Positions 1 through 17,781 of a stretch of DNA of 29,630 nt are shown here, one piece after another; the first letter of the stretch is position 1; each line of letters opens with the position of its first letter. This DNA is from a virus: IMG/VR virus record IMGVR_UViG_3300032334_002765, positions 1 to 29,630 of that record; one strand, given 5' to 3'. The translations under genes were made by a program, and so were the position numbers. The notes below the pieces were generated by a model that was not told the DNA's origin, did not search any database, and saw nothing but the letters and a program-made list of their open reading frames with translations.

Positions 1-2067
1 ATCCTCAGCACCATTCTTAAAAGACTTTGAATTCAGACAGCAACTTTCATAAGTGTAATTAGATATAGAGGCTGAAGCAACACATGTATCAACTTCAAAA
101 CTGCTATTTGAAGCAGCCACAGTTGTTGGATCTCCACAGTCTTTTTTATTTACACATGTATCAATATTAGCGCCCTTGTTGCCAAGCATAAAATAAAGAT
201 TATCACCCGAAGAAAAGCCTACCCAACCCCACTGTCTTGTTATGCTTGAACCTAAATAATAGGAAGAATACACATCATAAAAAGCATTATATTTTTGGAG
301 ATATACTCTTTCATAAGAAGTGGGATCAACATCCTTACGTCCAGTAGCCCAAAACATCAATCCGCAAGAGTCTTTGTCGCCAGAGCCATAGTTATCCATT
401 TTTGCAAAACCATTATTTCTTTCAAACTCTCTTATAACTCTGCATTTTTCACTGTATGAATAACAATTGTCACAGCATTTTGTTCCGCAATCACAACCTT
501 CTTTTGTTATTGGATCAAAATCTGGTTTTACAGTCCCTAAAAAGCTACTATTAAAATTGCTTTTTATATTGCAAGAATTATTTAAAGATTTGAAAGTTTC
601 ACTTATCAATCCAAATTCATGAGAAGAAATATTATTATCTGAACCTTTTGTCCAAAGACATAGATTTGAATTTTCTATTACATCTATACTTGATTTAAAA
701 TTTGTGATCCTATAGTTTCCACTATTTGTATCCGTTCTTAAAACAACATCATAAATACCACCAACGCTAAAAGAAGCAGTTGTGTAGTTTTGGTTTAGAT
801 GAGATAAATCGTCGCTTATTCCCCATGTATAAGAATTTATTGGATCTGAAGAATTTTGACCATTTTTTAAAACACCATTATCATATGCAGCAACATTCAT
901 TGAAATGTATGTGTTTATTGGAGATGTGATTCTATATAATCTTTTATTAACTTTTTCTCCCGTCAAAGATTCTATTGATATTTCTTGTCCCAAGAAAGTC
1001 TGAGAGTTACTAGCTACAAACTCTATTTCCGCTTCTGATGGGCAAAAATCTCTAACATTTACTACATTTTTAAGAACACATGTGTCTTCTCCAAAGTCGT
1101 TAGTGACTGTCAAAGACACATCATTGAACCCAGAGTTTTCATATGTGTAAATAAGCTTGTCTTGATCTAGGTTCAGATAAACAGTAAGACCTCCGAGCTT
1201 ATCTCCTCCTTCTCCTATTAACAACCTGTATTGTGGATTAACTATTGTAGAAGAATATGTTATACTAAAAGATTCTTCGTTTCCCACATCATTATGTGTA
1301 GCCCAATCATCGGTAGATTTTTGTAGAATATAATTTTTTTGTAAGAAATTTTCTGTCAACTTCACATCAACAGTTGTTAAAACCTCACCTGTTCCAAGTG
1401 TTTTAAAACTAAGAGATTTTTTATACGCAAAATAATCCGCAGAGCCATAGTTGAAATTCCACTTATGTTCCGTAAATCTACTTGAACCATCGGTGCCAAG
1501 TCTGAAACTTAGATCGGTAAATGTTACCACGCTTGGCTTTAATCCTATTTTTTTGTCTACACTAAACCAAGCTTTTGGAGCCAAAGCCAAATATCTTATG
1601 TAATTGGTTCTTTGTTCGATTGTGCCTTCCAAGGGTTTAACTGATCTCTCTCCCCGAACTCCAGCGAATTTTTCTATATTTAAAACAGCATCTTTAAGAG
1701 AATTATGATGCTCAGCCATTACGTTTTGAGTAATATTTGTTATATCTTTGTATTTTTTAACATCTTCAAATCCGGGAAGAATTTTAAGTCCGCTAAAATA
1801 TGCTGTTGTTGAAGATGTTGTTGTTTTTGTTGTGTAATAAAAAGATATAGCTCTTTGTTTTATTTCTTCGCACTGATCGGTAAGTGTTATTATTCCACCA
1901 CCTCTAGATTGATCAGGAAATCTTTCTATTGCTTCTGTTGTTCCATATACATATATTTCCTTGGATCCTGGGATATAATCTTCAGCCAAATGTAATCTCA
2001 GATAATCATGAACCTCGTAAAGGTTTTTATTTGTATCAAAATTTTCTGGATATTTACTGAGACTCAT
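1..2067 (-). CDS. PKD-type virion/adhesin protein, C-terminus cut by window edge
   Basis: An open frame runs from the ATG at 2067 to base 1 with no stop, so at least 689 residues are present and the C-terminus lies outside the window. A short AGGA lies just before the start, overlapping the stop region of the preceding gene 7 bases away. The N-terminal part is a paralogue of the next gene upstream: both share LYEV near residue 17 and the block AEHHNSLKDA (AEHHNAVKDA in the neighbour), followed by a PKD-like segment with VVTFTDLSFRLG and WNFNYGS. Further along is a Cys-rich stretch near residues 518-536 (C-x-C-x3-CC-x2-C-x7-C) and later two DTCV motifs and a CC pair. Position after the baseplate and fibre genes suggests an external virion adhesin or decoration protein. 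The function is inferred; the paralogy and Cys pattern are seen directly. Confidence 0.8.
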   Translation of the reverse strand, partial: MSLSKYPENFDTNKNLYEVHDYLRLHLAEDYIPGSKEIYVYGTTEAIERFPDQSRGGGIITLTDQCEEIKQRAISFYYTTKTTTSSTTAYFSGLKILPGFEDVKKYKDITNITQNVMAEHHNSLKDAVLNIEKFAGVRGERSVKPLEGTIEQRTNYIRYLALAPKAWFSVDKKIGLKPSVVTFTDLSFRLGTDGSSRFTEHKWNFNYGSADYFAYKKSLSFKTLGTGEVLTTVDVKLTENFLQKNYILQKSTDDWATHNDVGNEESFSITYSSTIVNPQYRLLIGEGGDKLGGLTVYLNLDQDKLIYTYENSGFNDVSLTVTNDFGEDTCVLKNVVNVRDFCPSEAEIEFVASNSQTFLGQEISIESLTGEKVNKRLYRITSPINTYISMNVAAYDNGVLKNGQNSSDPINSYTWGISDDLSHLNQNYTTASFSVGGIYDVVLRTDTNSGNYRITNFKSSIDVIENSNLCLWTKGSDNNISSHEFGLISETFKSLNNSCNIKSNFNSSFLGTVKPDFDPITKEGCDCGTKCCDNCYSYSEKCRVIREFERNNGFAKMDNYGSGDKDSCGLMFWATGRKDVDPTSYERVYLQKYNAFYDVYSSYYLGSSITRQWGWVGFSSGDNLYFMLGNKGANIDTCVNKKDCGDPTTVAASNSSFEVDTCVASASISNYTYESCCLNSKSFKNGAED

Positions 2068-2074
2068 TTTTTTC

Positions 2075-3451
2075 CTAATCTATCGTTATTTCTTCTTTTA
2101 AAAATGCTTTTTTAATTGTTTGGTTGTTAAATAAAACAAACACAGAAGGATTGTAAACAGAAGATGGATGATTTATTTTATACATAAAATTTATAGTATG
2201 TATGTTTGGATCTGTCTCCGTGTATGTTCTGACTATATCTGGATGCCATTCATTTTTAGAGTCATAACTTCCTATTATTGGTCCAAGCTTACCACCTGAT
2301 ATTCCCGATAAATCAATTCCATTTACGCTAATGTTTAAGCCATCACTAGGGATATCAGATACGCTTGCCAGTACAGTTTTTGTTTTTCCATCTTCATCAT
2401 AATATACAAACACTACGCCTTGTTTGAAATTTAAAATTTTTCTCATATCATCTTTGAATTTGAGTGCGTTTCCATTTACATCACATGAATAAAACTTTTT
2501 AATAACACAACCATCTCCATTAAAATTCCAATATCTTTCTTTTACATCGCCATCTGTTTGATCAACAAATTCAAAAACAGTTGGTTTTTCACCAACTGGG
2601 CTTTCTTTTTCATCAAGAGAAAAAGAAAAACCACTTGTCATATTGGGGGTTGTTGTTAAAACATCAAATCCATCTGGAGAATTTTTAACATAAAAAAATG
2701 GAGATCTTAATGTATCATCTACTATTATATAATTGTTTTTTGTTACTATTCCTTGTCCTCCCAACACACTTACAACCACCAATTCAACAGAATACGATCC
2801 TTCTTTTGTATATGTGTGCACAGGATTTTTTTCAGTAGATGTTGTTCCATCTCCAAAATCCCAAAAACATCTAATTAAAGGTCCATTTAATTTGTTGGGA
2901 GCCATACCAAGGCTAAAATTCTGAAAAGAAACAGTTAGTGGAGCACCACCAGAAACAGGATATGCTCTAAATAATGGCTTTGGTGTAAGAAATCTATTTT
3001 CTTGAGTTTTTAATATACCATTTAAAGAGATATCATCAGGACTTGATTTTAAGCCCAAATTAATTTCTGTTTTAATAATAGCATCCTTCACAGCATTGTG
3101 ATGCTCTGCACTCACTGAATTTGTCACATTGCTACCTAAATTCCATTGATTCTGCCTAGATCCTGCAAAACCACGAACCAAGTTATTAAAAGTGTTTCCT
3201 GTCCTATTTGCATAATAAATCAATTCACCAGAATTAATTTTTTTATTTGTAATTCTTATTAATCCCTGAGGAGGAAAACCAGAAGCATCTTCAACTATGA
3301 TTTTTTTGGCAGAATAGCCAACACTTTGTTTTAAGACAGTTGTTGCGTTGTTTCTAACTTCATACAAACTATCTTTATCATCAACAGCTTCAGGATATAG
3401 AGAAAGATCTCCTGTTATATATCCTGAGTTTAAACTATCAATTCTTGCCAT
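2075..3451 (-). CDS. PKD-domain virion protein (fibre/adhesin class)
   Basis: The protein has 458 residues from the ATG at 3451. A classic PKD domain lies at about residues 160-246, with the core WDFGDGTTS at 197 and the HTYTKEGSYSVELVV strand after it. A second, degenerate copy has WNFNGDG near 308-314. PKD domains are Ig-like beta folds common in extracellular adhesins and in phage tail decorations. The N-terminal 150 residues match the start of the downstream gene (LYEV and AEHHN-x2-KDA blocks), so the two are paralogues. The frame extends to a GTG at 3460, but TTAGGTG sits 6 bases before the ATG at 3451 and would overlap the GTG start, so I prefer the ATG. The start overlaps the preceding coiled-coil gene by 14 bases, which suggests translational coupling. 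A role in host contact is inferred from fold and position. Confidence 0.85.
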   Translation of the reverse strand: MARIDSLNSGYITGDLSLYPEAVDDKDSLYEVRNNATTVLKQSVGYSAKKIIVEDASGFPPQGLIRITNKKINSGELIYYANRTGNTFNNLVRGFAGSRQNQWNLGSNVTNSVSAEHHNAVKDAIIKTEINLGLKSSPDDISLNGILKTQENRFLTPKPLFRAYPVSGGAPLTVSFQNFSLGMAPNKLNGPLIRCFWDFGDGTTSTEKNPVHTYTKEGSYSVELVVVSVLGGQGIVTKNNYIIVDDTLRSPFFYVKNSPDGFDVLTTTPNMTSGFSFSLDEKESPVGEKPTVFEFVDQTDGDVKERYWNFNGDGCVIKKFYSCDVNGNALKFKDDMRKILNFKQGVVFVYYDEDGKTKTVLASVSDIPSDGLNISVNGIDLSGISGGKLGPIIGSYDSKNEWHPDIVRTYTETDPNIHTINFMYKINHPSSVYNPSVFVLFNNQTIKKAFLKEEITID

Positions 3452-4112
3452 TTGATGCACCTAATTTTTTAGTATATTCATTTTGTAAATTAATCATATT
3501 AGCCTGCAAAGCATTAAGTTTATTTAAAACTTGTTGCTTTATTGGTATGTCATCCGGTAGAGACAAAACAGTTTCGACTAACTCTATATCTATATTATTT
3601 TCAAGTAAAATTTTAAGATTCATTTTCTCTAAAAGTTTTGTTCCCCAATATTCTTTTTGGGCATCAATGTCGTCAAAATTTTTAATAGGTTCTATTTTTT
3701 CAATATTATTGTATGTTTGTAAAAAGAATTCACACTCTTCTTCTATAAATCTTTGCTTTTCTTGAAGATCAAGTATTGTATTTTTAACTCCTTCCATCGC
3801 TCTGTTTAATTGTCTTTGTTTTACAACTAATTCCTTAGCTGTAATTTCATCTATTTCTTGATCTTTTAATTTATTTAATTTAATTATATTAATTTCATGA
3901 AGCTCTAGCTTGTCTTTTTCTTCTTCAATTTGTAATAATAAATTTTTTAAATTGTCTTTCCTTAGCTTCAGCTCTCTTAAACACTGCCACATCTTAGCTT
4001 GATTTGTTGGCTCTTTTCCAATTAGGAAATATTTTAGCTGAAAATAACTGTGTCTTGAAACAACATCGTTTTTCAATAAATCATCCATTTTTTTAATTAA
4101 TTCGGTGGACAT
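3438..4112 (-). CDS. Coiled-coil protein of unknown function in fibre region
   Basis: The protein has 224 residues and is almost entirely helical and charged. Long heptad-like runs rich in Lys, Glu, Leu and Ile cover roughly residues 45-125 (for example NLLLQIEEEKDKLELHE) and again from about 160 to 215. There is no signal peptide or membrane segment. It sits between a propeller-tipped fibre and the PKD paralogues. The gap before it holds a hairpin, and its end overlaps the next gene by 14 bases. Small coiled-coil proteins beside fibre genes can be fibre-assembly chaperones or connector rods, but nothing in the sequence decides this. The GAGTGA before the ATG is a weak ribosome site. I do not recognise the family. 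Confidence 0.75.
   Translation of the reverse strand: MSTELIKKMDDLLKNDVVSRHSYFQLKYFLIGKEPTNQAKMWQCLRELKLRKDNLKNLLLQIEEEKDKLELHEINIIKLNKLKDQEIDEITAKELVVKQRQLNRAMEGVKNTILDLQEKQRFIEEECEFFLQTYNNIEKIEPIKNFDDIDAQKEYWGTKLLEKMNLKILLENNIDIELVETVLSLPDDIPIKQQVLNKLNALQANMINLQNEYTKKLGASNGKN
3458..3464 (-). promoter_or_regulatory. Ribosome binding site choosing the start at 3451
   Basis: The minus strand reads TTAGGTG, then six bases, then ATG at 3451. The competing in-frame GTG at 3460 lies inside this motif, so the ATG is the better start. The site lies inside the end of the upstream coiled-coil gene. Confidence 0.6.
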
Positions 4113-4167: not shown

Positions 4168-6537
4168 TCAATAACCTATTGAGTAAATGGAGCCGGTGCT
4201 GGTGTTAGTTATTACAAATTTACCATTACCATACGCGACAGATGACCATGTAGCTGAAAAAGGGAGATTGATTTCAATCCAATTTACGCCATCGCTAGAC
4301 ATGGCAGCTATAGAAGAAGGTCCGCCAACGGCTATCCATTTTCCATTTCCATAAGCTATACTCGTCCAGTTTAAAGTGGCTGGCATCCTGATAGTAGTCC
4401 AGTTAACTCCGTTTGATGTGGTGGCTGCATAAAGCCCATTCGCCACAGCAACAAACTTTCCGTTTCCATGTGCAATGCCGTTCCATAAAGCTCTAAATGG
4501 AAGTGTTGTTGCCGTCCAGTTAATTTGATTTGTTGATATTAACCCCTTATCGGTGATCGTGGGTGAGTTCGCTAAATTTCCAAATATTCCCCGACCAACA
4601 GCAACGGACAAATAGGAACCATCAGCAAATCCATTGGCAAGTCCTCTGACTTCACATAAATCTGTGCGAGCGGTAGCGCCGTTAAAACCATCAACATACA
4701 CAAGCCCACTCACCGCCCCTTTTAACCAATTGGCTCCATCTACAGAATGAAACACAACAACATTTTTTGCGGTTCTTTGCCCTATGGTTGAAATAAATCC
4801 GAAAAATCTACCGTTAGCGAATGATAACTCTTGAGTGCCTATCACACTGTTAACATTAGTGGGCGTACCGACCCAATAGGTTCCATTTGTTACTGACGTT
4901 ACAGCCATAGTAGGCTGAGCAGACCAATTAATGCCATCTGGACTGGTAAGTGGCAGGACTGAGCCAACAACACGCTTCCAAGCTACCCAATTGCCGCCAC
5001 CAAATGCAGGTGTGTTAGAACTGGAATTTGTACTCCCAGTTGACTCTAACGCTGCACTTCTTGCCCAAGTGATTCCATCGGAAGACATCTTCCCGGCAAG
5101 ACCAGAAAACTTATTGTTCCAAAAATTAATTTTAACAGCAGCACTTCCACCATTGTTCCAAGAAGGAGCCGCAGTAGCCGTTGGTGTTGGTGTTCTTGTT
5201 GGTGTTGCTGTGGCTGTGGGAGTATTAGTAGGTGTAGATGTTGGAGTTGCTGAAGCTGTAGGAGTTGGAGTCTTTGTTGGTGTTGGAGTTGCCGTTGATG
5301 TTGGAGTTGCTGTTGGAGTCTTTGTTGGTGTTGGTGTAGCTGTTGGGCAAGAAGGGATATTGTTGCTTCCACAACAATTGTCATATGCAAAAGTATAGTC
5401 TCCTTCTGCACCATATGGAACAGTTCCTATTGTGCAGCCACATATTAACTTTCCATCACGTTTAAGATAACTTCTTATATTAAAAGCACCTGAATTTCCG
5501 TTAAAGTTTTGCTGAACTATTCTGACGTTTATAGTATTAATTCCGCTTTTTATTGAGTTTGGGCTAAATCTTTTAATACTTATAGGCAAACCAGGACTAG
5601 TGCCGTAGCAACTAGGTATAGATGACTCGCTTGCTTCTAACGTAGCATCTTGGTCTGATATTAAGAAATATCCGTTTCTTTCGTCTTTACTGAAGTCAAG
5701 AACATCCGCTATTATAGTACCATTTAAAGTTACTCTTATGTTGTCATCTCTTGAAGCATTTGCATTACAAACTTCTATAACAACGACTCTATCCGGGCAG
5801 TAAGGCTTAGTAGATGTAGGTGTGTTTGTTGGTGTTGCCGTTGGTGTTGGAGTCCTTGTTGGTGTCGGAGTTCTTGTTGGTGTTGCTGTGGGAGTTGGAG
5901 TCCTTGTTGGTGTTGCTGTGGGAGTTGTTGTGGGTGTTGGGCTCGCGGTAGCGGTGGGGAATATAAACCCTGTTGGTGTTAAGGTAGGCGTAGGGGTTGT
6001 AGTAGGTGTTGGGGTTGGCGTAGCTGTAGGATCTACGGATAATCCTAAATCATAATTAATTGATTTACTTATAAACAAATATGTTTTATCTGTTTGAATA
6101 ATAGAATTAAAAGAAGAATTAGTTGGACTCCACAACAGTAAAGATAACCCTGAGATAGACTCTGAGTATACTGCTGATATATTATTTTTAACACTTTGAT
6201 TTAAACTATTTAAATTAAAATTAATACTGTTTCTATAAGTAATAAACTGATATATTTTTGAAATATATCCATTTTGATTTGGGGTATATGTGTCTATGGC
6301 AATAGAGTAAGAAGAAAAACCTGCGCTATTACTTGAAATATAATAAGTTTTTCCACTTTGAAGAGTATTAAAGCTGGATGCTCTACCAGGACGCCAATAT
6401 AAAAGAGAATTGCCACTTGGTGAGTCCGTTTGTATCGAAGATATCTTGTTTTTGATCTCTGTAGACAAAGAATCTAAGGAAAAATTTTCAATTCCGGAAT
6501 ATGAAAAAAATTGATTTATTTTTGTTACAACCAACAT
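4168..6537 (-). CDS. Tail fibre with Thr/Pro stalks and beta-propeller-like tip
   Basis: The protein has 789 residues. Its start at 6537 follows a strong AAAGGAG. Order of parts: two copies of an approximately 70-residue module (about 10-80 and 98-166, sharing [17 protein letters not shown] versus [17 protein letters not shown] and a later SGKTY/TDKTY); a Thr/Pro stalk at 170-244; a Cys-containing beta-rich domain at about 245-396 ([10 protein letters not shown] and then CGC, CCG); a second Thr/Pro stalk at 397-458; and a C-terminal domain at 459-789 with six S-x-DG-x-NW-type motifs ending at W491, W538, W604, W674, W713 and W753, several preceded by AYGNGKF/W. Such repeats are typical of beta-propellers. 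Position next to the baseplate genes argues for a fibre whose propeller binds a host surface ligand. The ligand is unknown, and no catalytic residues can be assigned. Confidence 0.82.
5164..5349 (-). repeat. Thr/Pro-rich tract 2 of the 789-aa fibre
   Basis: This encodes residues 397-458, almost wholly alternating TP units such as [13 protein letters not shown]. The DNA is a degenerate short tandem repeat (GGTGTTG / GGAGTTG on the plus strand). It probably forms an extended, stiff linker between the Cys-containing middle domain and the propeller tip. Confidence 0.85.
5806..6030 (-). repeat. Thr/Pro-rich tract 1 of the 789-aa fibre
   Basis: This encodes residues 170-244, with repeats of the type [10 protein letters not shown] interrupted by a short GFIFP segment. 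Near-identical DNA blocks recur within it, which would allow slippage or recombination to change stalk length. Confidence 0.85.
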
Positions 6538-6552
6538 CTAGACTCCTTTGGA

Positions 6553-8334
6553 CTATGCGGGAGAAATTACTACATCACCATCTGAAAAAGTTCCTGTATA
6601 CCTGGCATGATCATAAATTAAATCAAAATGGCTTCCAATATAAGAATTGGGAGCGGAAAGTACAGCAATATTTTCTGAACCTAAATAAATATTCATTGCG
6701 AAACCGATTCCAGTATCGCCAGTATAATTAAATATTAAAACACATGAATTCGTAGAACTCGTAAGATTTAAGCCAACTAACTCTCCAAAATAATAAATGT
6801 TTGAAGGATTTGTAGGATCAACCATCTCATGTGTTAACAAATTTTTATTATAAGAAGAAGTTGATGACGAACTAACTATATTGAATGTGTCAACTAACAT
6901 ACCACTGTATGTGACGCCATCTTTTATTACAACAAAAGGACCTCCGCCATAATCTGATAAATAAGTAACAGCAGCAGTTAGATTATTATCAAAAAGCAAG
7001 TTTGTGGATGAACCTTGACCACCTTTTCCCGAATCATACACAAACCCAAACACAAGTTTGTCGCATGATGGAACCGCTCCTCCTAAGCCCGTATTGGAGC
7101 AAGCCAAGGACATGTGCTCACCTATTCCTGCGTCATATTTACAAGTTAGATCTTTTGGTGGATTGCTTACATCGCAACTTCCATACACATATTTATAAGA
7201 AACAGCAATTCCGGGTGTAGCTGTAGGTGTGGCAGTTGGAGATGCACCAGGAGTTGAAGTAGGTGTGGCAGTTGGAGATGCACCAGGAGTTGAAGTAGGT
7301 GTGGCAGTTGGAGATGCACCAGGAGTGGCGGAAGGCGTTCTTGTTGGTGTAGAAGTTGGAGAAGAAGTGGGCGTAGCAGCAGGTGTTCTTGTTGGTCTTG
7401 GTGTTCTTGTTGGTCTTGGTGTTGATGTTGGAGGATATGTAAAACCTGGAGGGGTCGCCGTAGGTGCTGGTTTTAACCCTGTTGCTATATCAAAATCTAC
7501 AACTATTGTGTTCATAGAACTTATAGAAGTCGGTAAACTCCCTCCACCGTCCTGACTGGGAAGAACTAAACTGAAGCCATCATAATTGTCATTTTCTATA
7601 AAATTAATCCTCCCCCAAGAAACTACTGTGACCAAATTATCTACATCTGATATAATTGGATAATAAGAAGGCGTTTCATACTCATCTAATTTAAATATTC
7701 TATATCCATTTACATATACTCTTAAAGTTCCTGATTTAAAATTATGCCCAGTAAGTCCCCCGGTTATACCTGATTTATCTTCTGTTAAGATTAATTTATC
7801 TTCTATGAGATTTACTTGATAAAAATGTTGATGATAGTCTGCCGCTCCTGGCACTATTAAATTTGCCCTAACTATATTGTTATTTAATTCCCATGTAACA
7901 CCCTCAGAGTTTTTAAATATTAGATTGCCATCATTCACTGAACCTAAACTAATATCATTTTTATTCTTAAATTCTACTGTAATTGCAGAAGCAAGCTTTA
8001 TTCTTTCTGCATCAGTCATCCTCACATAACCGTCAGAATCTACGTGTTCAGATATTCGATGCACAGACAAATCAACTGCATCTGCTTTTAATGTACCGTC
8101 TAAATTTATAGACACAGCCAGTCTGGCTAACAAATCTCCTAAATCTACACTTGTATTTTGTAATATTATCGATAAATTATTTACTTGCTGTGATATTATC
8201 TCGTCTCTTTTTGCCAAAGACCGCAGAGGCTTATTATCATACTCCCAGTGATAAGGATCTCCTGGTTGATAAAGAGGGGGGTCTTGATTGCTTAAATTTA
8301 AAGATTTAAAAGATTTATCATCATTGTTTTGCAT
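6553..8334 (-). CDS. Tail fibre with Thr/Pro stalk
   Basis: The protein has 593 residues. The N-terminal part contains DGTLKADAVD near 79-88 and SEHVDSDGYVRMTDAERIKLA at about 95-115, a signature I associate with the proximal, baseplate-attached region of fibres in large myoviruses. A beta-rich region follows (about 130-285), then a Thr/Pro stalk at 289-375 containing [12 protein letters not shown] repeats, and a C-terminal globular domain of about 215 residues that begins with a Cys-containing segment (GSCDVS, then LTCKYD). That tip is presumably the receptor-binding part; I do not recognise its fold. It shares its stalk type with the next gene, 15 bases downstream. The ribosome site is weak: AAGG lies about 13 bases before the ATG. 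The fibre role is inferred from architecture and position. Confidence 0.8.
   Translation of the reverse strand: MQNNDDKSFKSLNLSNQDPPLYQPGDPYHWEYDNKPLRSLAKRDEIISQQVNNLSIILQNTSVDLGDLLARLAVSINLDGTLKADAVDLSVHRISEHVDSDGYVRMTDAERIKLASAITVEFKNKNDISLGSVNDGNLIFKNSEGVTWELNNNIVRANLIVPGAADYHQHFYQVNLIEDKLILTEDKSGITGGLTGHNFKSGTLRVYVNGYRIFKLDEYETPSYYPIISDVDNLVTVVSWGRINFIENDNYDGFSLVLPSQDGGGSLPTSISSMNTIVVDFDIATGLKPAPTATPPGFTYPPTSTPRPTRTPRPTRTPAATPTSSPTSTPTRTPSATPGASPTATPTSTPGASPTATPTSTPGASPTATPTATPGIAVSYKYVYGSCDVSNPPKDLTCKYDAGIGEHMSLACSNTGLGGAVPSCDKLVFGFVYDSGKGGQGSSTNLLFDNNLTAAVTYLSDYGGGPFVVIKDGVTYSGMLVDTFNIVSSSSTSSYNKNLLTHEMVDPTNPSNIYYFGELVGLNLTSSTNSCVLIFNYTGDTGIGFAMNIYLGSENIAVLSAPNSYIGSHFDLIYDHARYTGTFSDGDVVISPA
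7210..7470 (-). repeat. Thr/Pro stalk with 36-bp tandem repeat
   Basis: This encodes residues 289-375 of the 593-aa fibre. Inside it, a 36-base unit repeats exactly: 7225-7260, 7261-7296 and a partial third copy at 7297-7326 (30 bases). Each unit encodes 12 residues including [12 protein letters not shown]. The exactness of the copies points to a recent tandem expansion. Smaller repeats (GTTCTTGTTGGTCTTG) occur around 7383-7420. Confidence 0.9.
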
Positions 8335-8376: not shown

Positions 8377-8850
8377 CTATAGAAAATTAATTCTCCAATT
8401 CCATGTTATTTGCATGTTCTCAGTTTTTGTTAAATTTGGAAATGTAACCATACTATAAAGATTGCCATTATTCATCTCTAAAGCCATTTCATTTATAACA
8501 GATCCATTGATTTCTGAATACTTTATTACAGACGTAAAAACAACCTGAGACGTTATTGAAGGGTCTATATTAGCTATTATCGGCTTGGATATCACTTTTT
8601 GTCCAAAAAGTGAACTTCTATCACCATCTACTATTTTTGGAGAAGAATTTAAAGCTCCACCATCTCCAAATATCATTTTTGAGATATAAAAAGAGTACAT
8701 ATCACCGATCTCATTAGCCAAACTCATGGCTAACGCTTCTTTTCCTTTTTTTAATATTGCATTTTGCATTGTATAGAAAACTTTGTTTTTGTTTAAATCT
8801 TCTATACAAACGTCAACAAAACCCTGTACTCTCTGATTTTCGTCTTTCAT
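8377..8850 (-). CDS. Small virion protein between wedge and fibre genes
   Basis: The protein has 157 residues. Its ATG overlaps the stop of the preceding gp7-like gene as ATGA, and AAGGGAG lies about 7 bases upstream, so expression should be good. The C-terminal half is beta-rich and ends in the pattern TFPNLTKTENMQITWNWRINF. That ending (aromatic, K-T-x-x-x-x-I/L-x-W-x-W/I-x-F) is common in phage tail-associated proteins of this size. It may be a connector between wedge and fibre or a fibre-base protein. There is no signal peptide or membrane segment. Family assignment is tentative. Confidence 0.7.
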   Translation of the reverse strand: MKDENQRVQGFVDVCIEDLNKNKVFYTMQNAILKKGKEALAMSLANEIGDMYSFYISKMIFGDGGALNSSPKIVDGDRSSLFGQKVISKPIIANIDPSITSQVVFTSVIKYSEINGSVINEMALEMNNGNLYSMVTFPNLTKTENMQITWNWRINFL

Positions 8851-11800
8851 ATTTCTCCCTTTTCTTTACTTCCATCCAAAGTTGTTATTTCGAAGCTAAC
8901 GCCTTCTTTTTGAGACATATAGTTCGTGAAGCCCGAGCTATCTTTTACTGTTCTGTTAATAATCTCTTTTCCGCTTCTATTTATTGAGAATTGTTCTTGC
9001 GGTAAGCCTAGGTAATCCTCATTTATCACGGCATTATTTTTTGTATATTTGTAAATTTCCACTTGTATTTCAATGCCTTCGGTGCCAAAATTCTCAAAAA
9101 GACCAGACAGCCAAATTGTTGAGCCATCTATCTCTGATATAAAGTAGTAATTATCATAAGAATTCAAAGTTATATATGGATCATCATATGTTTCTCTGAT
9201 TGAAATCGAAAAGTCTTCTTTGAAGCTATCCGATTCTTTTTTGGTAATAGAAGTGCTGTTTTTCCCGTTGACTATGCCTAAATCTTGCTCAAGATTTGTC
9301 GTGCAAATAGCCTGCAGACCAATATATGAAAGATATCCCTCGGAAGAAGGTAGTAAAATTTGTCTATACTCTAAATTGGTAGAGCCCAAATTGCCACCAT
9401 CATATGTATCAATATACAAAACATCATCAGCAGTGGAATATCCTATTACTTTACACAAATAAGCTTTTCCGGATACAGTAAAGAACACATAGTTATTATT
9501 GTTCTTTAAAATTGACATTTTTTCTGTATTATTAAATTTAACTTTTGATCTATTTGAGTGAGATATATTGCAATTACTTGTTTTTTCCTCGCCCTTTAGA
9601 GATATGGCATCCAAATTACCATCTAATATTGAATATGCTTTATTTGTTATATTTGAATTTAATAAATTGCTATTATTGACTAATAATAATTTATTATTTG
9701 GCAAAATTTCTTTTATATCAAAATTATGATATGATCCGCCTATATCAATTTTTACTTTAAAATTATTGTCATTTGGCAATGTTGTTATATTTAAATCTTT
9801 AAAATAAACAGTAGAATCAGATAGTTCTATTATATCATCTTTTGTTACAAACTCTGTGTCGTAACTAAATAGTTTATTGTATAACTTGAAATTAAATGGT
9901 GCTGTGCTAAGAGGCTCTAATATCCCATCAACAGTCAAAAATTTCCCAACTTTGCTTAGTAGGTATTCACCAAAGTTCAACCCAGAAGTCACTGCCAGAT
10001 AACAATTTTCAGATATTGGCATGTCCGCCAAATTTAAATCAGAGCTAAACAATGCTATTTTTTCATTTTTAAATGTTAATCTACCAGAAAATTTCAGCTC
10101 TTTTGATGTCATATCGCTTCTTATTTTTAATTGTCCTCCTGGAGCTGGTGTTGCTGAGGGATTATCTCTATTTGATTTGTCTATTTGATTTAATAATTTA
10201 TTTCTATAAAACCACAGCTGAGTGGCACCAGCTATAACAGACTCTTGATTTGTGTTTTCAATCAGTATGTCATAATCTTCTATTGGCGGAGCAACAAATT
10301 CATTTTGACCACCATATAAATTTATTGTTTTTAGTATCGAGTGAAAAGGAGTGTTCTCTGAAATAATTTCTCTAACTTCAGAAATCCTATCATCAGATAG
10401 ATTCTCTATCTCTAAATCTATATCAAACTTTCCACTTCTACAATATGAGCAAGAATCCAGAAAATCTTTATCTATATCACATGGATCTAAAGAGTCTCTT
10501 GTAGAATTGTGAGAAACTATGCCATTGGAAATATAGGAAGATGTATCCTCTACATTCAAGGGGTCAAAAACATACTCATAAGTACTGGGGGAAATATCTT
10601 TAATTTTTTCAAAAAACCAATCATTATCAACATAATCTCCAATAAATTTTGCTTCCAAACCGTTTATTTTAAATTGTTGAATTTTTTGATGTATTTCAGA
10701 AACTATATTGTCCGGAATTGTTTTTTGATAACCCTGTTTCAGCCTTGTTATTAAAGTGATTACTCTTTTTTCTTCTCTTGTTCTGTCTGCTACTCTTGCT
10801 TTTGACACCCTTTTCCTAAAAGGAAAAATGTTTTTTATTATCTTATCTCCAAAAGGAATTATAGTACGGTCGGCTTCTAAAATTGAATTTTTCTCCAACT
10901 CAATAGCATCAACTAAAGATTTATTTTTAGCGGATGAATTAAATCCTATTTTATTGACAAATAAATTTCTACTATTCTTTCCTACAATTCTAACTCTAAA
11001 ATATTTTCTTCTTCTACCCTTCCAAGAAACCCTATAGCTAGTAACAGAAGAAATAATTCCAATTATTAGTAGTAAGTTTTGAATTTCTTGTGCTAAATTC
11101 TTCCATTTTGTCGTCAACAAAGGTTGTCTTTTTTGTATGCCTCCATCCGTGTCAAAAATACCCTTTAGAAAAGAGCAAATTTGTTCTTCACCGCTTTGCC
11201 ATATCAAAGCGGGTAATGATCTTCTCCATCTTCCTTTTGTTTCATATTTTGGTATAATTTGATCCAAAATAGGAACCTCAACACTAGAACTACAGATTCT
11301 ATGTAGATCTTCGTTACATTTAAAATTCGTGTGTTTTTGATGTTTAATCTTATCGATACAAAATATATGAAATTTTGCATTATTATTTTCTAAAATTTTA
11401 GAAATTAATTCTTTTATTTCTGGTTCTTTTTCAGAAATTAGCCATCTGAAAGATCTGGCATTATTATTTTTTTGATACAAATTTCCATCTCCGTAGAGAT
11501 GCCCAGCTAAATACCACAAATCTTTATCTAAACCTTTGTTTTTTGGAATAGAATTACAATTTCCCTTTTTACATAAAACATAATCCCCCACACCTAGTTG
11601 AGAAGACTCTTTCCAATTAAGTCCGCTTTCACTTAAAACTTTAAACTTATGATTAGGTGTTACAGAGATGCTTCTTCCCAAATTAGTGGTAATTTTGAAT
11701 GTTTCTTTTTTGCCTTGATTTTTTAGTTCTTCGAATAATTTAAATCCAAATTCTGTCATAATAAACTTATCATCTTTTATATCTTTTATTTTTTTAATTC

Positions 11801-13472
11801 CATTTTCAGTCACAACCAGAGTCGAGCCAACACAACAGCCATTGTACTCATCCATATTATAAACATTTTCACTATATGGGAATTCTGTTCTTATTTTACC
11901 AAAAACTACATTTTTAATAAAAGGATGTCTTTTTGTAAGTATAGAGCTGACCATTGGATCATTCTCGGACAGTAGTCTCACATTCCAGTTTTTCAAAGGT
12001 ATAGTTAAAACACTTTGCCCATCAACAATGGTTTTCTCTTCTCTTTCATCCACAAACTGAAGATTTTTTATATAATCATCAACCGATATTTCTGCCTCAC
12101 CAGAGGGTATTTTAAAATAATATGAGAATCTAATAGTGTCACCAGGACACAAAAATGAAGGTCCCCCAACTTTACATTTATTGAAATCAACATCGGACAC
12201 TTGAACAAAAGATTCACCATATTCATTTTCAAAAACTTTAACTTTAGATATATCAACATTTATTGCTTCTGTGCTATTATTCTTTGTTAAGTATATTTCA
12301 AAATGATCTGTTATTAACGAAGCTGGTTTTTTAGATAGCTTAAAAGTATCTGTGTCTGAAACAAAGAATGACTCTTGTATAAAAAACGGAGAAGTTATTT
12401 GCCAAAAATTCTGCAAGCCTATCAGTCTCATTCCAGCCTGAGAAAAGCTATCCTTTAATGACCCAAGAGTTCCTTTTCTTTTATAAAGAGGAACTGCTTC
12501 CTTGATTTGTCTTCTCCACAATGTAGGATCCTGACTCTTTAGTTTTACATCCAATGTATTGCTTAGGTAAGTCATCATATACTCACCTACAGCGTTAGAA
12601 TCTAACAAGTCTACAATCTGATTCCCAATGTCCTCTAGAGCGGTGAAGCCCTGAGCTATAGAGTCATTGAACTTTTTAAGAACATCGGGAGATCTATCTG
12701 TATCGGTGAGTATCACCTTATACATTTCTGGCAAGTATCTGTCTAATAGAGTTTCATATTTATCAGGGGCTGTGTGGTGAGCAGGAGATGTTGTAGAAAC
12801 AGCGTTTGAAGAACTAAGATTAAATTTAATATTATCTGAAAAAAGATCTTGTCCTATTCTTGGAGCCCAACTCCAACATACAAAATAGTCTCCTTCTCTC
12901 ATCCCAACGGGATTCCAAGTAAATTCAAAGTGCCCGATAGAATCAGTTTTTGTTATTAAGCTCTCATTTATATCTTCCGAAAACCACGCCGGATTTGTGC
13001 CAGTTCCTATATTTTTAACTTGTATTACGCTTTTATAATAAAAAGTATCAGAATACACAGGATCAATTGAAGATGTATCGCTAAACTTCAGAGAAGCTCC
13101 TGCCAAAGTTTTAGAGGCAGGGTAAGAAAGCATTATTGATGTTTTGCTTAAAACATACGAAATAGTTGTTCCTGCCTTTATCCCATCGCCTTCAACAAGC
13201 ATCCCAACTTTTAAATTTGTATTATATGCTAAGTTGTCTACTATTCTCGTCTCAGAGTTCAAATTCCCCGTTATTACCAATGAAGGATTTTTGTTTATTT
13301 CAAAATTATATTCTTTTTGTTCTGTGTCTCCAAAATCTCTTTCTACAAAGTAGATCTTTACGCTTTCAACTTTGTATGGATCTATTAAATTATTATTTTC
13401 GTCTGTTGTTTTTAAATTAAACAGAACATTATCTGCAACAGATGGATTTTGATCTATTGTTAAAGTTTTCAT
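8847..13472 (-). CDS. Baseplate wedge protein (T4 gp7 / P2 gpI type) with an intein
   Basis: The frame has 1541 codons. Residues 1-220 form a beta-rich N-terminal region. Residues about 236-356 resemble tail protein I of P2-like phages: a helical segment ending in RRQIKEAVPLYKRKGT, then G-x-LKDSFSQAG. T4 gp7 is the structural counterpart of gpI in the wedge, and here the gene directly follows gp25- and gp6-like genes as in T4. Residues 547-989 are an intein with homing endonuclease (listed separately). Removing it leaves 1098 residues, close to T4 gp7 (about 1030). After the insertion comes a Cys-rich stretch (C998, C1008, C1011; C546 lies before the intein) and then more than 500 residues of mostly beta structure. 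The start overlaps the gp6-like stop as ATGA. The wedge role is well supported by order and the gpI-like segment; detailed domain borders are inferred. Confidence 0.82.
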   Translation of the reverse strand: MKTLTIDQNPSVADNVLFNLKTTDENNNLIDPYKVESVKIYFVERDFGDTEQKEYNFEINKNPSLVITGNLNSETRIVDNLAYNTNLKVGMLVEGDGIKAGTTISYVLSKTSIMLSYPASKTLAGASLKFSDTSSIDPVYSDTFYYKSVIQVKNIGTGTNPAWFSEDINESLITKTDSIGHFEFTWNPVGMREGDYFVCWSWAPRIGQDLFSDNIKFNLSSSNAVSTTSPAHHTAPDKYETLLDRYLPEMYKVILTDTDRSPDVLKKFNDSIAQGFTALEDIGNQIVDLLDSNAVGEYMMTYLSNTLDVKLKSQDPTLWRRQIKEAVPLYKRKGTLGSLKDSFSQAGMRLIGLQNFWQITSPFFIQESFFVSDTDTFKLSKKPASLITDHFEIYLTKNNSTEAINVDISKVKVFENEYGESFVQVSDVDFNKCKVGGPSFLCPGDTIRFSYYFKIPSGEAEISVDDYIKNLQFVDEREEKTIVDGQSVLTIPLKNWNVRLLSENDPMVSSILTKRHPFIKNVVFGKIRTEFPYSENVYNMDEYNGCCVGSTLVVTENGIKKIKDIKDDKFIMTEFGFKLFEELKNQGKKETFKITTNLGRSISVTPNHKFKVLSESGLNWKESSQLGVGDYVLCKKGNCNSIPKNKGLDKDLWYLAGHLYGDGNLYQKNNNARSFRWLISEKEPEIKELISKILENNNAKFHIFCIDKIKHQKHTNFKCNEDLHRICSSSVEVPILDQIIPKYETKGRWRRSLPALIWQSGEEQICSFLKGIFDTDGGIQKRQPLLTTKWKNLAQEIQNLLLIIGIISSVTSYRVSWKGRRRKYFRVRIVGKNSRNLFVNKIGFNSSAKNKSLVDAIELEKNSILEADRTIIPFGDKIIKNIFPFRKRVSKARVADRTREEKRVITLITRLKQGYQKTIPDNIVSEIHQKIQQFKINGLEAKFIGDYVDNDWFFEKIKDISPSTYEYVFDPLNVEDTSSYISNGIVSHNSTRDSLDPCDIDKDFLDSCSYCRSGKFDIDLEIENLSDDRISEVREIISENTPFHSILKTINLYGGQNEFVAPPIEDYDILIENTNQESVIAGATQLWFYRNKLLNQIDKSNRDNPSATPAPGGQLKIRSDMTSKELKFSGRLTFKNEKIALFSSDLNLADMPISENCYLAVTSGLNFGEYLLSKVGKFLTVDGILEPLSTAPFNFKLYNKLFSYDTEFVTKDDIIELSDSTVYFKDLNITTLPNDNNFKVKIDIGGSYHNFDIKEILPNNKLLLVNNSNLLNSNITNKAYSILDGNLDAISLKGEEKTSNCNISHSNRSKVKFNNTEKMSILKNNNNYVFFTVSGKAYLCKVIGYSTADDVLYIDTYDGGNLGSTNLEYRQILLPSSEGYLSYIGLQAICTTNLEQDLGIVNGKNSTSITKKESDSFKEDFSISIRETYDDPYITLNSYDNYYFISEIDGSTIWLSGLFENFGTEGIEIQVEIYKYTKNNAVINEDYLGLPQEQFSINRSGKEIINRTVKDSSGFTNYMSQKEGVSFEITTLDGSKEKGEI
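10506..11834 (-). other. Intein with LAGLIDADG homing endonuclease
   Basis: This spans 443 codons inside the wedge gene, residues 547-989 of the precursor. Numbering from the intein: block A starts CVGSTLVVTENG with Cys1; block B has T59-P-N-H62 (the TxxH motif); block C is LAGHLYGDG at 109-117 with acidic D116; block E is GIFDTDGG at 225-232 with D230; block F is YVFDPLNVEDTSSY around 421-434; block G is NGIVSHN ending in H442-N443. The first downstream extein residue is Ser990. All residues needed for class 1 protein splicing are present, and both LAGLIDADG acidic residues are intact, so splicing and endonuclease activity both look possible. A basic segment (GRRRKYFRVR, about 273-282) could help DNA binding. 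Precursor residue 546 is also Cys; the second Cys is preferred as Cys1 because Val follows it. Confidence 0.93.
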
Positions 13473-15028
13473 TGTTGTATTTGTTCATATTGGAAGTTTA
13501 GAGTGATAGTTCCTGGTCTAATTATTTCATTGAACTTAGGAACAATAATTGAAGCAGCAGCTTCCATATCATTTGTAAAAGAAACTTCGTAGTGATCCGG
13601 CTCCTTTATGTCAGATAGTTTTTTGATAACATCTACATCTCGTATTGTTTTGCCATAATCCCAATTACTTAATAAGAATAGATCTGATAATCTTCTTGTG
13701 ATTTTTTCTCTTATTTCATCCTCAAATTTTCTATAGAGCCTGTCTATGAAAATATCCACAGAAACATCAACCGATATTATTGATCCATCTCTTATACAAA
13801 TAAAATCTGTTATCATTTTATTTGCTTCTATATATGTTTTAAGTTCGCTCTTGAGCTGATCATTTGCTTTTTCTAAAGTTTGTTCATTTTGTTTCGCCAA
13901 AATATAAAGATCTACTATATTTGCTGAACAGCCATAATTTCTCAAAGAGGCAACAGATTTTCCAATTTGTCCCTGATAAGGACTAACAAACTGCTCAGAT
14001 AATGTTTTATAATCAAGACCGGTAACAGCTCTGTTTTGTGTTCTCAGATATTGAGGGAGCTTTCTTCTTATGTCATCTATGGTATCCCCATTATAACCAT
14101 GTTGTCCCTTTGTATAATTGTTAAAAGTAACAGGAACGCTAATTTCATAATTTGGAGGATTAATTAAAGTTTGAGTTGTAACGCTTCCGGCAACTATATT
14201 ACCGATCGAACCACCACCTGAACGATATGTTACAACTATTTGAGACCCTTGTGATGGCAAAAGCCCAGCTCTATTATTTCCAAATATAATATAAGCAGTA
14301 TATGTTGAATCAAATTCTACTCTGTATTCTCTTCTTGGTTGAGAGTCTGTAAAGTAGTCTACTCTTTCCCATCTAACTCCATCCACAGACACTCTTATAG
14401 AATCATATATAACTGGAAGATAACTTAATTTAACAGTTTGTCCAACTTGTCCTGTGCCATCAACAGTGTCGTTTCTTGTTGCTCCTTCAAGACCGATGAT
14501 ACTGGCGTTTACGAAATTACCAGATGGTATTATTATATCATCATCAAAAATAGGATTATTATCGGCATCTGATGGGAATAGCTCTATTCTTATTAAAGTA
14601 TCTCCACTAACCGTCTCTACATCAAAAGGTGTTGGTATAACAAGATCAAAATCTAAAGTATTATTTATAGTTGCTGTCCATAAAGAAGTCGCACTTATTG
14701 GAGGTTGAGGCTGAAACCCAACAAGTTTAGATAATCTAAATGCGTTTTCTAATTCTGTCACTGTATCTATAAATATTTCATTGGCAATTTGATCAATTTT
14801 AAAACTTAGAGTATCTGCTATAAAAGCCCAGTTTTCTATCAACATGACTGCAACTGAAGATTCAACAAAATCATTAAACTCTGTTGAATATTTTTGTCTT
14901 ATAAACTCAACTAACCTGGTCTTCATTGACCAGAAGTCTTGATTTGTATAATTTAAATTAAAAATATTTGGTTTTTTAATGTTTTGCGATTGTGCATACG
15001 GCGTTATATCAAATGGACAGTTGCTCAT
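13469..15028 (-). CDS. Baseplate wedge protein, gp6 / gpJ family
   Basis: The protein has 519 residues. The N-terminal helical part (about 25-105) has the layout of Baseplate J-like proteins, including ELENAFRLSKLVGFQPQPP near 92-110. A beta-rich middle domain follows (about 110-290), with the SGGGSIGNIVAGSVT turn. The C-terminal region after QNRAVTGLDYKTL is also typical of gpJ/gp6. This family forms the iris of the inner baseplate that triggers sheath contraction. It lies between gp25- and gp7-like genes, the conserved order. There is no clear ribosome site before the ATG; instead AAACTATATTA lies only five bases upstream. Confidence 0.88.
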   Translation of the reverse strand: MSNCPFDITPYAQSQNIKKPNIFNLNYTNQDFWSMKTRLVEFIRQKYSTEFNDFVESSVAVMLIENWAFIADTLSFKIDQIANEIFIDTVTELENAFRLSKLVGFQPQPPISATSLWTATINNTLDFDLVIPTPFDVETVSGDTLIRIELFPSDADNNPIFDDDIIIPSGNFVNASIIGLEGATRNDTVDGTGQVGQTVKLSYLPVIYDSIRVSVDGVRWERVDYFTDSQPRREYRVEFDSTYTAYIIFGNNRAGLLPSQGSQIVVTYRSGGGSIGNIVAGSVTTQTLINPPNYEISVPVTFNNYTKGQHGYNGDTIDDIRRKLPQYLRTQNRAVTGLDYKTLSEQFVSPYQGQIGKSVASLRNYGCSANIVDLYILAKQNEQTLEKANDQLKSELKTYIEANKMITDFICIRDGSIISVDVSVDIFIDRLYRKFEDEIREKITRRLSDLFLLSNWDYGKTIRDVDVIKKLSDIKEPDHYEVSFTNDMEAAASIIVPKFNEIIRPGTITLNFQYEQIQQ

Positions 15029-15051: not shown

Positions 15052-15468
15052 TTAAGTTAATGGAATCTGTAATCTTAATTCTTGAACCTCAGATATTTTC
15101 TCTGGATCTACGAATTTTATATTAATATATAAAATATTATCTACATCTTCTCTTGGATCCATTGGGTTCAAGCTGCTACCTGGAATTTCTCTGGAAACTT
15201 CTATCTGACTAACTGCTATTCTGGGCTCCCACTTAGATATAGACTCAGATATCATATTTTTTGCAGTTGCCTCTAACACAGCATCATTTTGTTCAAATAT
15301 TAACCTTTTTAGAGGTGTTCCAAAATCTGCAAGAAAAACACGTTCTCCTGGATTTGTTAGCAATAAAGACAGTAAATCTGATTTTATTTGAGATATTCCA
15401 CTTTGTGTTTTAAAGAAACCAAGTGGATTTTTCACTACAGGATATGGTAAGCCGAGAAAATTAGCCAT
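15052..15468 (-). CDS. Baseplate wedge protein, gp25 / gpW family
   Basis: The protein has 138 residues, the usual length for GPW/gp25 proteins. Motifs: NPLGFFKTQSGISQIKSDLLSLLLTNPGERVF near the start, then FGTPLKRLIFEQND, and a C-terminal beta segment ending LRLQIPL. The LLLTNPGERVF-x(4)-FGT block is diagnostic of this family. T4 gp25 joins the wedge core to the sheath and was once misnamed a lysozyme; no enzymatic role is expected. The next gene downstream is gp6-like, as in T4 and P2. No Shine-Dalgarno-like sequence precedes the ATG. Instead the leader has a 10-base palindrome ATAAGCTTAT (15476-15485). Confidence 0.92.
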   Translation of the reverse strand: MANFLGLPYPVVKNPLGFFKTQSGISQIKSDLLSLLLTNPGERVFLADFGTPLKRLIFEQNDAVLEATAKNMISESISKWEPRIAVSQIEVSREIPGSSLNPMDPREDVDNILYINIKFVDPEKISEVQELRLQIPLT

Positions 15469-15495: not shown

Positions 15496-17781
15496 TTAAA
15501 TCCCAGAAGCCTGATTTTCTGATGCTTCGCCTGAAGTAATAGCTTGTTTTGCCCTTAGTGTACCTTCATCTGCAGCTTTATCTGCAGGAGTTCCAGCAGT
15601 AGATGTGCAGCAAGGATCGGTTGGACACTGAACTAGTGGCGACATACTGAATATACTTGCTGCCGGAGCAGTGCAGCTTGCACTTGCATACACCCTATCA
15701 CTTAATCTTAAGCATCCACCTACATACACAACAACCGGTCCCAAACATGGAATACAACCATCATCGTTATTTTTTGGCTGGCAATCTTTACCAGCAAGCA
15801 ATAAAATATTCTCATTTGCTACAAAAACATGTGATTTTTTAGTAACATTCACATAATAATCTTCGGTAGAAACAACTTTTAATCTACTTATTATTTCCAC
15901 ACAATCAGATGGATTTTTTTCTGGGTCTCCAATTATTGAAACTTTGTCTTTACATGTGGAGACAACATAACGACCCCCAGAACGCAAAAATATATAAGAG
16001 TTTTCAGAGTTAGTGCTTTCCTGCATTCTTATTATATGAGGTCCACAACTGCCTGTTTTTGTTTTCTGAGGAGCAAGCAACTGAATGTATTGTTGCTGTG
16101 TTTCTTCTTGAGAAGAGGAATCATTCATCATTATTTCCAAACCATATCCTGTTCTCATTTTAATATAAGCTTTTTTAGCCTTAGCTTTTGGACTAGCCCC
16201 TTCTTTCCGAGTCTCAGAGCATTGTTCATTTGCCTCATCACACATGTCTAGTGTATGATTAGATGTACTTTGTATATGTATTCCTCTTCTTGATCCTGCT
16301 GTACAAGGGGCGATTGTGTGATCGTTTAATTCTACTTTATTGCCGGTAGCAGTTTTCAACATTATATAATTATTCTCACTTCTAGCTGGTGTGTCCCCGC
16401 TAGTTTCCAGATCACTAATTTCTATCGAATGACCTGTTGCGCTTTTAAGATACATTCTTCCTGCAAAAGTATTATTACAACCAAAATCAAAAGCTTTTGT
16501 AGATCTAGACCAACCCATATCGCCCGATGGTTCTTCTACACTATCATCCATAACAAAAGTGTGCCCAGATATACTCATGAACTGTATTCCAGTTTGTGGT
16601 AAATCACACTTATTGTTTTGTGGTGTGCTTGGACCCTTATAAGGTCTACACTCATTCTCATGTTTGAAATAAGGATTATCACCAACCTGACTATCAGAAT
16701 ATTTAGAATTTGGGCTGCCTGTGCTTGGATGTCCTCCTATTATTTTTTTGTTGCTAGTTTTACCATCACAATCCATTTTTTCTTTTGCAATATAGCTTTG
16801 TGCGCTTGTGTTGGTGGTGTTTGCATCATTAACCCTGCCTGCAACTGTTCCAAAAATAGCTTCTGTGTCAATGCCCTCGCCAGTTAGTAATTGATACCTA
16901 CTTATTAGTCCATATTGTTTGGTTGTATCGTCTTCTGGACTTCCTTCATCTTGACCTTGAACACAACTCACATCCCCAGGCTTGGCTCCGCAACTTGTGT
17001 GTGCCCATTGACCACTATAGTGCAGGTGATCATCTTTAAACATCATCCAGTTACCACAACTAGACATCAATTCCATTCTTTTCCATTTTCTATTACACTT
17101 GGCATCTCCATCCACCATTTTAAGCATGTGTTTTTCTGGTGTTTTAAAGCCGTATATATTTGGATATGTTATTCTTTTTTGAGCTTCTGGATCACTAGAA
17201 AAGTCCACAATAGAATTAAGATCAAATCCATTGTAGCTTTCCGTGTTCCAAGGAGGGAGAACTTGACTCTCATCGTTAGCTCCAACTAAATAACCTTTTC
17301 TTTTTCCTTCATATATTTCTTTATATTCACTTTTTGGTCCACCCATTGAACTGTATAGCCAATTATGTTTTCCTTCTGGTCCTCTGTTTCTATGCCAAAC
17401 AGTCCCTAAGTAATAAGGAGAATTTCTATCTCCGTTTTCAAACATAATAGCAACAGTGCTACCCGCCGGAGGAACCCAATTTAATCCACAATCGTCAAAG
17501 CCACCCATGCTTGATATTGGATATGCCCAAGGAAATTCTTTCAATGGTCTGTATGGATTGTGAATAAAAGGACAAAAAAATCTTATTCTATTCATTTTCC
17601 ATATATCAATTGTGTCAATACAAAAAGCAAGATAAACTCCATTTAAAGTTTCTTCTTGCACAAGAACTTTAACACCGTCATTTAAAGTGCTTTGAACCAC
17701 CGCTGCTGTGTTGTATAAAAAGTTTGAAAATCTACCCTCTATAGCCCTCAGCTGAGTTTCATAATCTTTGTAAATGCTCAT
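15496..17781 (-). CDS. Central spike protein, gp5/VgrG-like OB-fold, Cys-rich
   Basis: The protein has 761 residues. An OB-fold domain at about 60-132 resembles the T4 gp5 N-terminal domain: RIRFFCPFIHNPYRP, then PWAYPISSM, GLNWVPPAGSTVAIMFENGD and YYLGTVWH. The rest has repeating beta segments with the pattern hydrophobic-x-T/S-x-x-G-x-x-hydrophobic (for example IMLKTATGNKVELND, IKMRTGYGLEIMMND), as expected for a trimeric beta-helix spike. I find no lysozyme-like segment between them, unlike T4 gp5. About 25 Cys are present, with a cluster near the C-terminus (GCIPCLG, QCPTDPCC). The AAGGAA before the ATG is a fair ribosome site. It follows the hub gene and precedes gp25, which fits a membrane-piercing spike. 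Confidence 0.87.
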   Translation of the reverse strand: MSIYKDYETQLRAIEGRFSNFLYNTAAVVQSTLNDGVKVLVQEETLNGVYLAFCIDTIDIWKMNRIRFFCPFIHNPYRPLKEFPWAYPISSMGGFDDCGLNWVPPAGSTVAIMFENGDRNSPYYLGTVWHRNRGPEGKHNWLYSSMGGPKSEYKEIYEGKRKGYLVGANDESQVLPPWNTESYNGFDLNSIVDFSSDPEAQKRITYPNIYGFKTPEKHMLKMVDGDAKCNRKWKRMELMSSCGNWMMFKDDHLHYSGQWAHTSCGAKPGDVSCVQGQDEGSPEDDTTKQYGLISRYQLLTGEGIDTEAIFGTVAGRVNDANTTNTSAQSYIAKEKMDCDGKTSNKKIIGGHPSTGSPNSKYSDSQVGDNPYFKHENECRPYKGPSTPQNNKCDLPQTGIQFMSISGHTFVMDDSVEEPSGDMGWSRSTKAFDFGCNNTFAGRMYLKSATGHSIEISDLETSGDTPARSENNYIMLKTATGNKVELNDHTIAPCTAGSRRGIHIQSTSNHTLDMCDEANEQCSETRKEGASPKAKAKKAYIKMRTGYGLEIMMNDSSSQEETQQQYIQLLAPQKTKTGSCGPHIIRMQESTNSENSYIFLRSGGRYVVSTCKDKVSIIGDPEKNPSDCVEIISRLKVVSTEDYYVNVTKKSHVFVANENILLLAGKDCQPKNNDDGCIPCLGPVVVYVGGCLRLSDRVYASASCTAPAASIFSMSPLVQCPTDPCCTSTAGTPADKAADEGTLRAKQAITSGEASENQASGI

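Follow-up and report, generated by a model that had tools for sequence, protein, structure and literature searches.

A probable homing intein at a conserved site of a gpI-type baseplate gene in a large tailed phage

Results

The baseplate module and its interrupted gene

We have analysed a 29,630-base virus record, referred to as the window throughout, in which the ORF at 8847–13472 on the minus strand reads 1541 residues without a break. The gene belongs to a baseplate module, whose members are as follows.

15496–17781, minus strand: gpV-like spike/OB protein, the upstream baseplate gene (PF04717 Phage_base_V)
15052–15468, minus strand: gpW/gp25-like wedge protein (PF04965, phrog_261)
13469–15028, minus strand: gpJ/gp6-like wedge protein, whose end is overlapped by the start of the gpI gene (phrog_219)
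8847–13472, minus strand: precursor ORF of a gpI-type (Tail_P2_I) baseplate protein with an intein, 1541 aa (PF09684, PF14890, PF14528)
8377–8850, minus strand: gpH-like tail-collar fibre N-terminal protein, downstream of the gpI gene (PF12571, just below cut-off)

According to the Pfam and PHROG matches in the window, the gene order of the module is V, W/gp25, J/gp6, I and H-like, and the order in P2 is V, W, J, I, H. PF09684 (Tail_P2_I) was matched at precursor residues 270–360 with an E-value of 5e-5 (23.5 bits, against a Pfam cut-off of 20.6). Since the order is P2-like and Tail_P2_I is matched in 32 of 36 relatives of the precursor, the host gene is that of a P2 gpI-type baseplate protein. 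With regard to T4 gp7, the precursor gave no PHROG match, its family matched no PDB sequence, and the fold search returned nothing significant. An earlier note on this DNA had called the host "gp7/gpI-type"; the gpI part agrees with the above-cut-off domain match and the V-W-J-I-H neighbours, while T4 gp7 found no support in the PHROG, PDB sequence or fold searches.

Several other features were seen around this gene. Positions 4168–8334 of the window encode two predicted tail or surface proteins without a Pfam match, whose long Thr-Pro repeats are encoded by tandem DNA repeats with units of 18–72 bases, and two more proteins, with PKD domains, adjoin the baseplate genes at 2–3460. In the relatives L074 and L079, the gpI-like gene is split into several frames, by sequencing errors, decay or introns.

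Anatomy and boundaries of the insert

Within the precursor, we have located the following parts.

11838–13472, minus strand: N-extein, residues 1–545, ending ...ENVYNMDEYNG, from alignment with intein-free homologues
10506–11837, minus strand: intein, residues 546–989, 444 aa (C1 to N444), from profile matches and allele comparison
11649–11660, minus strand: splicing block B, TPNH (T60 and H63 of the intein, invariant in six alleles)
11484–11510, minus strand: first LAGLIDADG motif, LAGHLYGDG
11139–11162, minus strand: second LAGLIDADG motif, GIFDTDGG (PF14528 at residues 764–843)
10506–10571, minus strand: C-terminal splicing blocks F and G, VFDPLNVEDTSSYISNGIVSHN (D425, H443 and N444 invariant)
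8850–10505, minus strand: C-extein, its first residue being the +1 Ser of STRDS

In the Pfam search, PF14890 (Intein_splicing, E = 8e-16) and PF14528 (LAGLIDADG_3, E = 4e-12) both matched the precursor above their cut-offs, and the alignment to NCBIfam TIGR01445 (intein_Nterm) begins at residue 546. We compared six distinct alleles, namely those of the window, L002, L004, L082 (the same allele as L083), L086 and L088. All of them keep C1, T60 and H63 of block B, D425 of block F, H443 and N444, and all are followed by Ser at +1. Both LAGLIDADG motifs are present and their acidic residues, D117 and D231, are likewise invariant. That is, the insert has the N-terminal Cys nucleophile, the block B TxxH, the penultimate His, the terminal Asn and the +1 Ser of class 1 inteins; it lies in frame, and its exteins align across the junction with intein-free homologues. 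A class 3 intein was ruled out, as C1 is invariant, the block F position is occupied by D425 and the WCT signature is absent.

The endonuclease part shows two motifs with catalytic acidic residues, the PF14528 match, and fold matches to PI-PfuI and I-DmoI. In the PDB, the best fold matches of the predicted intein model, which is of low confidence (mean pLDDT 52), are PI-PfuI, TliVMA and PI-SceI, and the profile of the intein family finds PI-PfuI (1dq3) among the PDB sequences with an E-value of 1e-7. Overall, the insert is an intact class 1 LAGLIDADG intein with putative splicing activity. The earlier note had claimed just such a complete intein with two intact LAGLIDADG motifs, and the searches with intein (Hint) and LAGLIDADG models, both matched above cut-off, bear it out, together with the TIGR01445 match and the invariant D117 and D231.

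The boundary on the N-terminal side needs a correction of one codon. Two adjacent Cys residues stand at the intein start in five of the six alleles, and the allele of L088 has one only (NG^CVVSST). Because the junction is free of Cys in the empty alleles and carries a single one in L088, the start is fixed at Cys546, where the usual block A spacing presumably places it as well. We rejected a start at Cys547, since empty homologues read NG-S, L088 has its single Cys, and TIGR01445 aligns from C546. Thus, of the extent claimed before (10506–11834), the end at 10506 stands and the start moves upstream to 11837. The ligated junction should read ...DEYNG^STRDS..., and the peptide predicted earlier, GC^STRDS, has to be given up, as the intein-free homologues read NG-S without Cys.

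Empty sites and the place of insertion

With the N-extein as query, 78 relatives were collected from viral contigs. The insert-free ones continue across the site as ...FPYSENVYNMDEYNG-S-x-R-[DE/N/P]-[S/T]..., so that empty alleles cross the junction as NG-S and match the corrected boundary. This is the alignment of relatives with and without the insertion by which the earlier note had proposed to judge the site. The nearest empty allele is that of L003, whose N-extein shares 87% identity with that of the window; another close relative, L005, is also without the intein. We further scanned for the site pattern and removed a few chance matches. Among the matches listed, at least ~126 distinct contexts have Ser at the site and six have Cys, and all six Cys contexts are inteins; in other words, the intein occupies 6 of ~132 distinct contexts among these matches. 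In a scan of the genome collection for the site motif, only chance matches and one empty relative, L093, were found. The latter is a baseplate gene on a contig filed under a Neisseriaceae MAG, which is either a prophage or a misbinned phage.

Across the whole protein, as aligned for 36 intein-free relatives, conservation is highest in the twenty-residue stretch spanning the site, IRTEFPYSENVYNMDEYNGS. Homing inteins usually choose a constant target that is intolerant of faulty excision. The conserved site here would likewise offer a nearly constant DNA target with no tolerance for an unspliced insert. In the predicted structure of the empty-site protein of L003, which as a whole gave no significant match in the PDB, residues 516–564 have no secondary structure and a pLDDT below 50 in the monomer. 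As this segment (RTEFPYSENVYNMDEYNGSxR, residues 516–564 of L003) is the most conserved of the gpI-like protein yet has no predicted fold in the monomer, a baseplate partner may bind to it. In addition, L003 and L005–L007, the nearest intein-free relatives, have Met at +2, a position at which Thr is found in near relatives with the intein and in the outgroup L075; Met at +2 is possibly a homing-resistant allele.

Disagreement between the histories of intein and host gene

Between the window and L082, the inteins are 79% identical while the N-exteins are only 39% identical; for the neighbouring genes the values are 59% (gpJ), 55% (gp25) and 45% (gpV). On the other hand, in all host genes compared the window is more similar to L086 (gpJ, 72%) than to L082, while the intein of L086 is more distant (69%). 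The histories of intein and host genes therefore disagree. The same tendency is seen in the synonymous divergence of closer relatives: dS from the window is 0.07 for the intein of L002 and 0.53 and 0.58 for its exteins, and 0.33 for the intein of L004 and 1.29 and 1.33 for its exteins. For the less divergent pairs, the dN/dS of the intein is 0.07–0.23; the ratios of distant pairs are rough owing to saturation in some of the dS values. Judging from these small ratios, the intein is under purifying selection.

The extein tree needs five changes of intein state, at least four of them forced by the starred branches. A single clade of intein-bearers is rejected (p-AU 5e-43), and so is the window clade plus L082 as one group (p-AU 5e-18). 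The six distinct alleles sit at the identical codon and are scattered among empty relatives. Actually, in one sample (3300037189), an empty allele (L036) occurs together with intein-bearing alleles from two lineages that are distant from each other (L004 and L083). Reaching the same site in unrelated backgrounds is what a LAGLIDADG homing endonuclease is expected to do, and the pattern shows repeated acquisition at one site and horizontal spread between distant phage lineages.

Two further comparisons concern the arrival of the intein in L082. When co-conversion was examined in 45-base bins, the 45 bases on each side of the L082 intein resembled the window only a little more than they did the clade of L082 itself. 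The GC content is 0.29–0.30 for the intein and 0.29–0.38 for the hosts; as a sign of recent arrival it is suggestive in L082 alone, where the intein has 0.292 and the host 0.376.

Comparison with known inteins

The baseplate intein shares blocks A, B, F and G, two LAGLIDADG motifs and in-frame insertion at a conserved site with the class 1 LAGLIDADG inteins PI-PfuI, PI-SceI and TliVMA. Unlike theirs, its host is a virion subunit rather than a nucleic-acid or ATPase enzyme, and the gpI baseplate protein is not known to bind nucleic acid. Inteins found at other sites share at most ~25–30% identity with the baseplate intein. The named matches in 50,697 phage records lie in helicase, terminase, RecA and reductase genes, the distant profile matches are terminase and ribonucleotide reductase inteins, and the search with the profile of the baseplate intein found no other intein in baseplate loci.

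A survey of mycobacteriophages (Kelley et al. 2016, PMC5050341) has described inteins in terminase, portal and DNA or nucleotide enzyme genes, and in no tail or baseplate gene, and has stated that nucleic acid is bound by every phage protein with an intein. Those inteins are also phage-borne, mobile and placed at conserved sites, and the portal among their hosts is a virion protein, but the host here is the gpI baseplate protein. A cryoconite phage (PMC7468147) offers a similar case, an environmental phage with an intein in a structural gene, that of a minor head protein; this intein differs in lying in a head gene and in being reported as a metagenome coverage gap, without allele comparison. 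Papers on jumbo, huge and crAss-like phages give terminase, polymerase, helicase and reductase genes, and according to reviews and surveys most phage inteins are found in nucleic-acid enzymes. Among the open-access papers examined, we found no published baseplate intein. Hence the earlier view that an intein is unusual in a late structural gene holds as far as the baseplate is concerned, though not for virion genes in general, given the two published cases and the portal gene of the relatives described below. Overall, the element itself is of a known kind, and its host gene, baseplate gpI, and its site are new.

A portal mini-intein in the same phage group

Eight longer relatives (L225, L226, L227/L228, L230, L231/L232, L233) carry an intein in a T4-like portal gene. 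It has 230–234 aa, all class 1 residues and no LAGLIDADG motif, and is located between DEA and CQ; a conserved GW.HERxFVDxW... stretch lies between its splicing blocks. Among the 80 best portal relatives (L234–L313), the intein was scored in 77; two of the other three end before the site, and one has an intein-like sequence missed by the rule and is probably positive as well. The motif search for an empty portal site returned only a chance match. When 50 distinct alleles were compared pairwise, the extein was more similar than the intein in 99.8% of pairs, and in no pair did the intein exceed the extein by more than 10 points. Because of this, the portal intein appears to be vertically inherited with its host gene.

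The portal mini-intein (L225, L227, L230, L231, L233) thus resembles the baseplate intein in being of class 1, in a virion gene and in the same phage group, while it differs from the mobile one in being endonuclease-free and present in all relatives inspected. Other inteins were also noticed in this search. A large relative, L229 (G008, a 435,946-base contig), has a thymidylate synthase with a LAGLIDADG intein, and a distant relative, L224 (LR756511.1, 595,163 bases), has a ribonucleotide reductase with intein and LAGLIDADG matches, in which more than one intein-like stretch lies in one frame.

Discussion

Based on the above analyses, we consider the insert to be a mobile class 1 LAGLIDADG homing intein, lying in frame between Gly545 and the +1 Ser (Ser990) of a gpI-type protein, with a probability of about 0.93. 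The precursor would be translated whole, as extein, intein and extein; the intein would then excise itself and join NG to STRDS. This would make the best-conserved segment continuous again, without which the baseplate protein would presumably not work. When two phages share a cell, the endonuclease would cut intein-free alleles of the same gene, and repair would copy the intein into the cut empty allele. Splicing and DNA cleavage are here inferred from the intact residues, the purifying selection and the pattern of spread. The reading of homing with splicing is preferred because the intein dS is below the extein dS, intein identity is far higher, and the alleles are scattered.

A different view would make the intein a regulatory switch, which times or restricts the assembly of the baseplate by conditional splicing, e.g., with the C1-C2 pair responding to redox conditions. 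Loss of the segment would disable the protein, so that splicing gates function in principle, and the adjacent Cys pair in five of six alleles would provide the sensor. However, the intein is sporadic, in 6 of ~132 contexts among the matches listed and absent from L003 and L005, L088 has no second Cys, and the alleles diverge in the manner of a mobile element rather than of a common control device. We therefore regard such a switch as quite improbable. Nor did we find support for the proposal of the earlier note that splicing efficiency controls tail production; since the intein is found so sporadically, tail assembly does not need it. It is unlikely, if somewhat less so than the switch, that virion assembly has splicing built in, with the fixed portal intein and the mobile gpI intein gating head and tail assembly, respectively.

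Vertical inheritance with many losses, homing having ceased, is slightly less credible than the switch. Counts of changes alone cannot separate gain from loss, but the intein dS is far below the extein dS between near relatives, intein identity is about twice extein identity between distant ones, and both nuclease motifs are retained, so this reading is already disfavoured. Less credible again is an insert that stays unspliced or only cleaves, leaving a mature protein that is unspliced or of two chains. Splicing is predicted here from the sequence, which leaves some room for it, but neither the splicing residues nor the +1 Ser vary among the alleles, the intein is under purifying selection, and the insertion splits the most conserved segment of the protein. 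As the source is a metagenomic contig, a 29.6 kb fragment, one may also suspect an assembly artefact in which the intein was joined from another gene. Against this, the codon-exact same insertion recurs in contigs that are independent of one another, come from several samples and differ in their flanks, and the reading frame is intact on both sides; the artefact is already refuted, with a negligible chance left to it.

The homing intein that we favour is thus real and mobile but of a conventional type, placed in a gene of a large tailed phage that is uncommon as an intein host, and the portal mini-intein is the more interesting by-product. With it, a tail baseplate protein joins the list of phage intein host genes, and the view that phage inteins reside solely in nucleic-acid-binding enzymes is weakened. 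Filled and empty alleles occur naturally, once in one sample, which makes the site a good system for homing between distant phages. In addition, the mobile baseplate intein and the apparently settled portal intein can be compared in virion genes of one lineage. What counts for an intein host gene seems to be a conserved, essential site.
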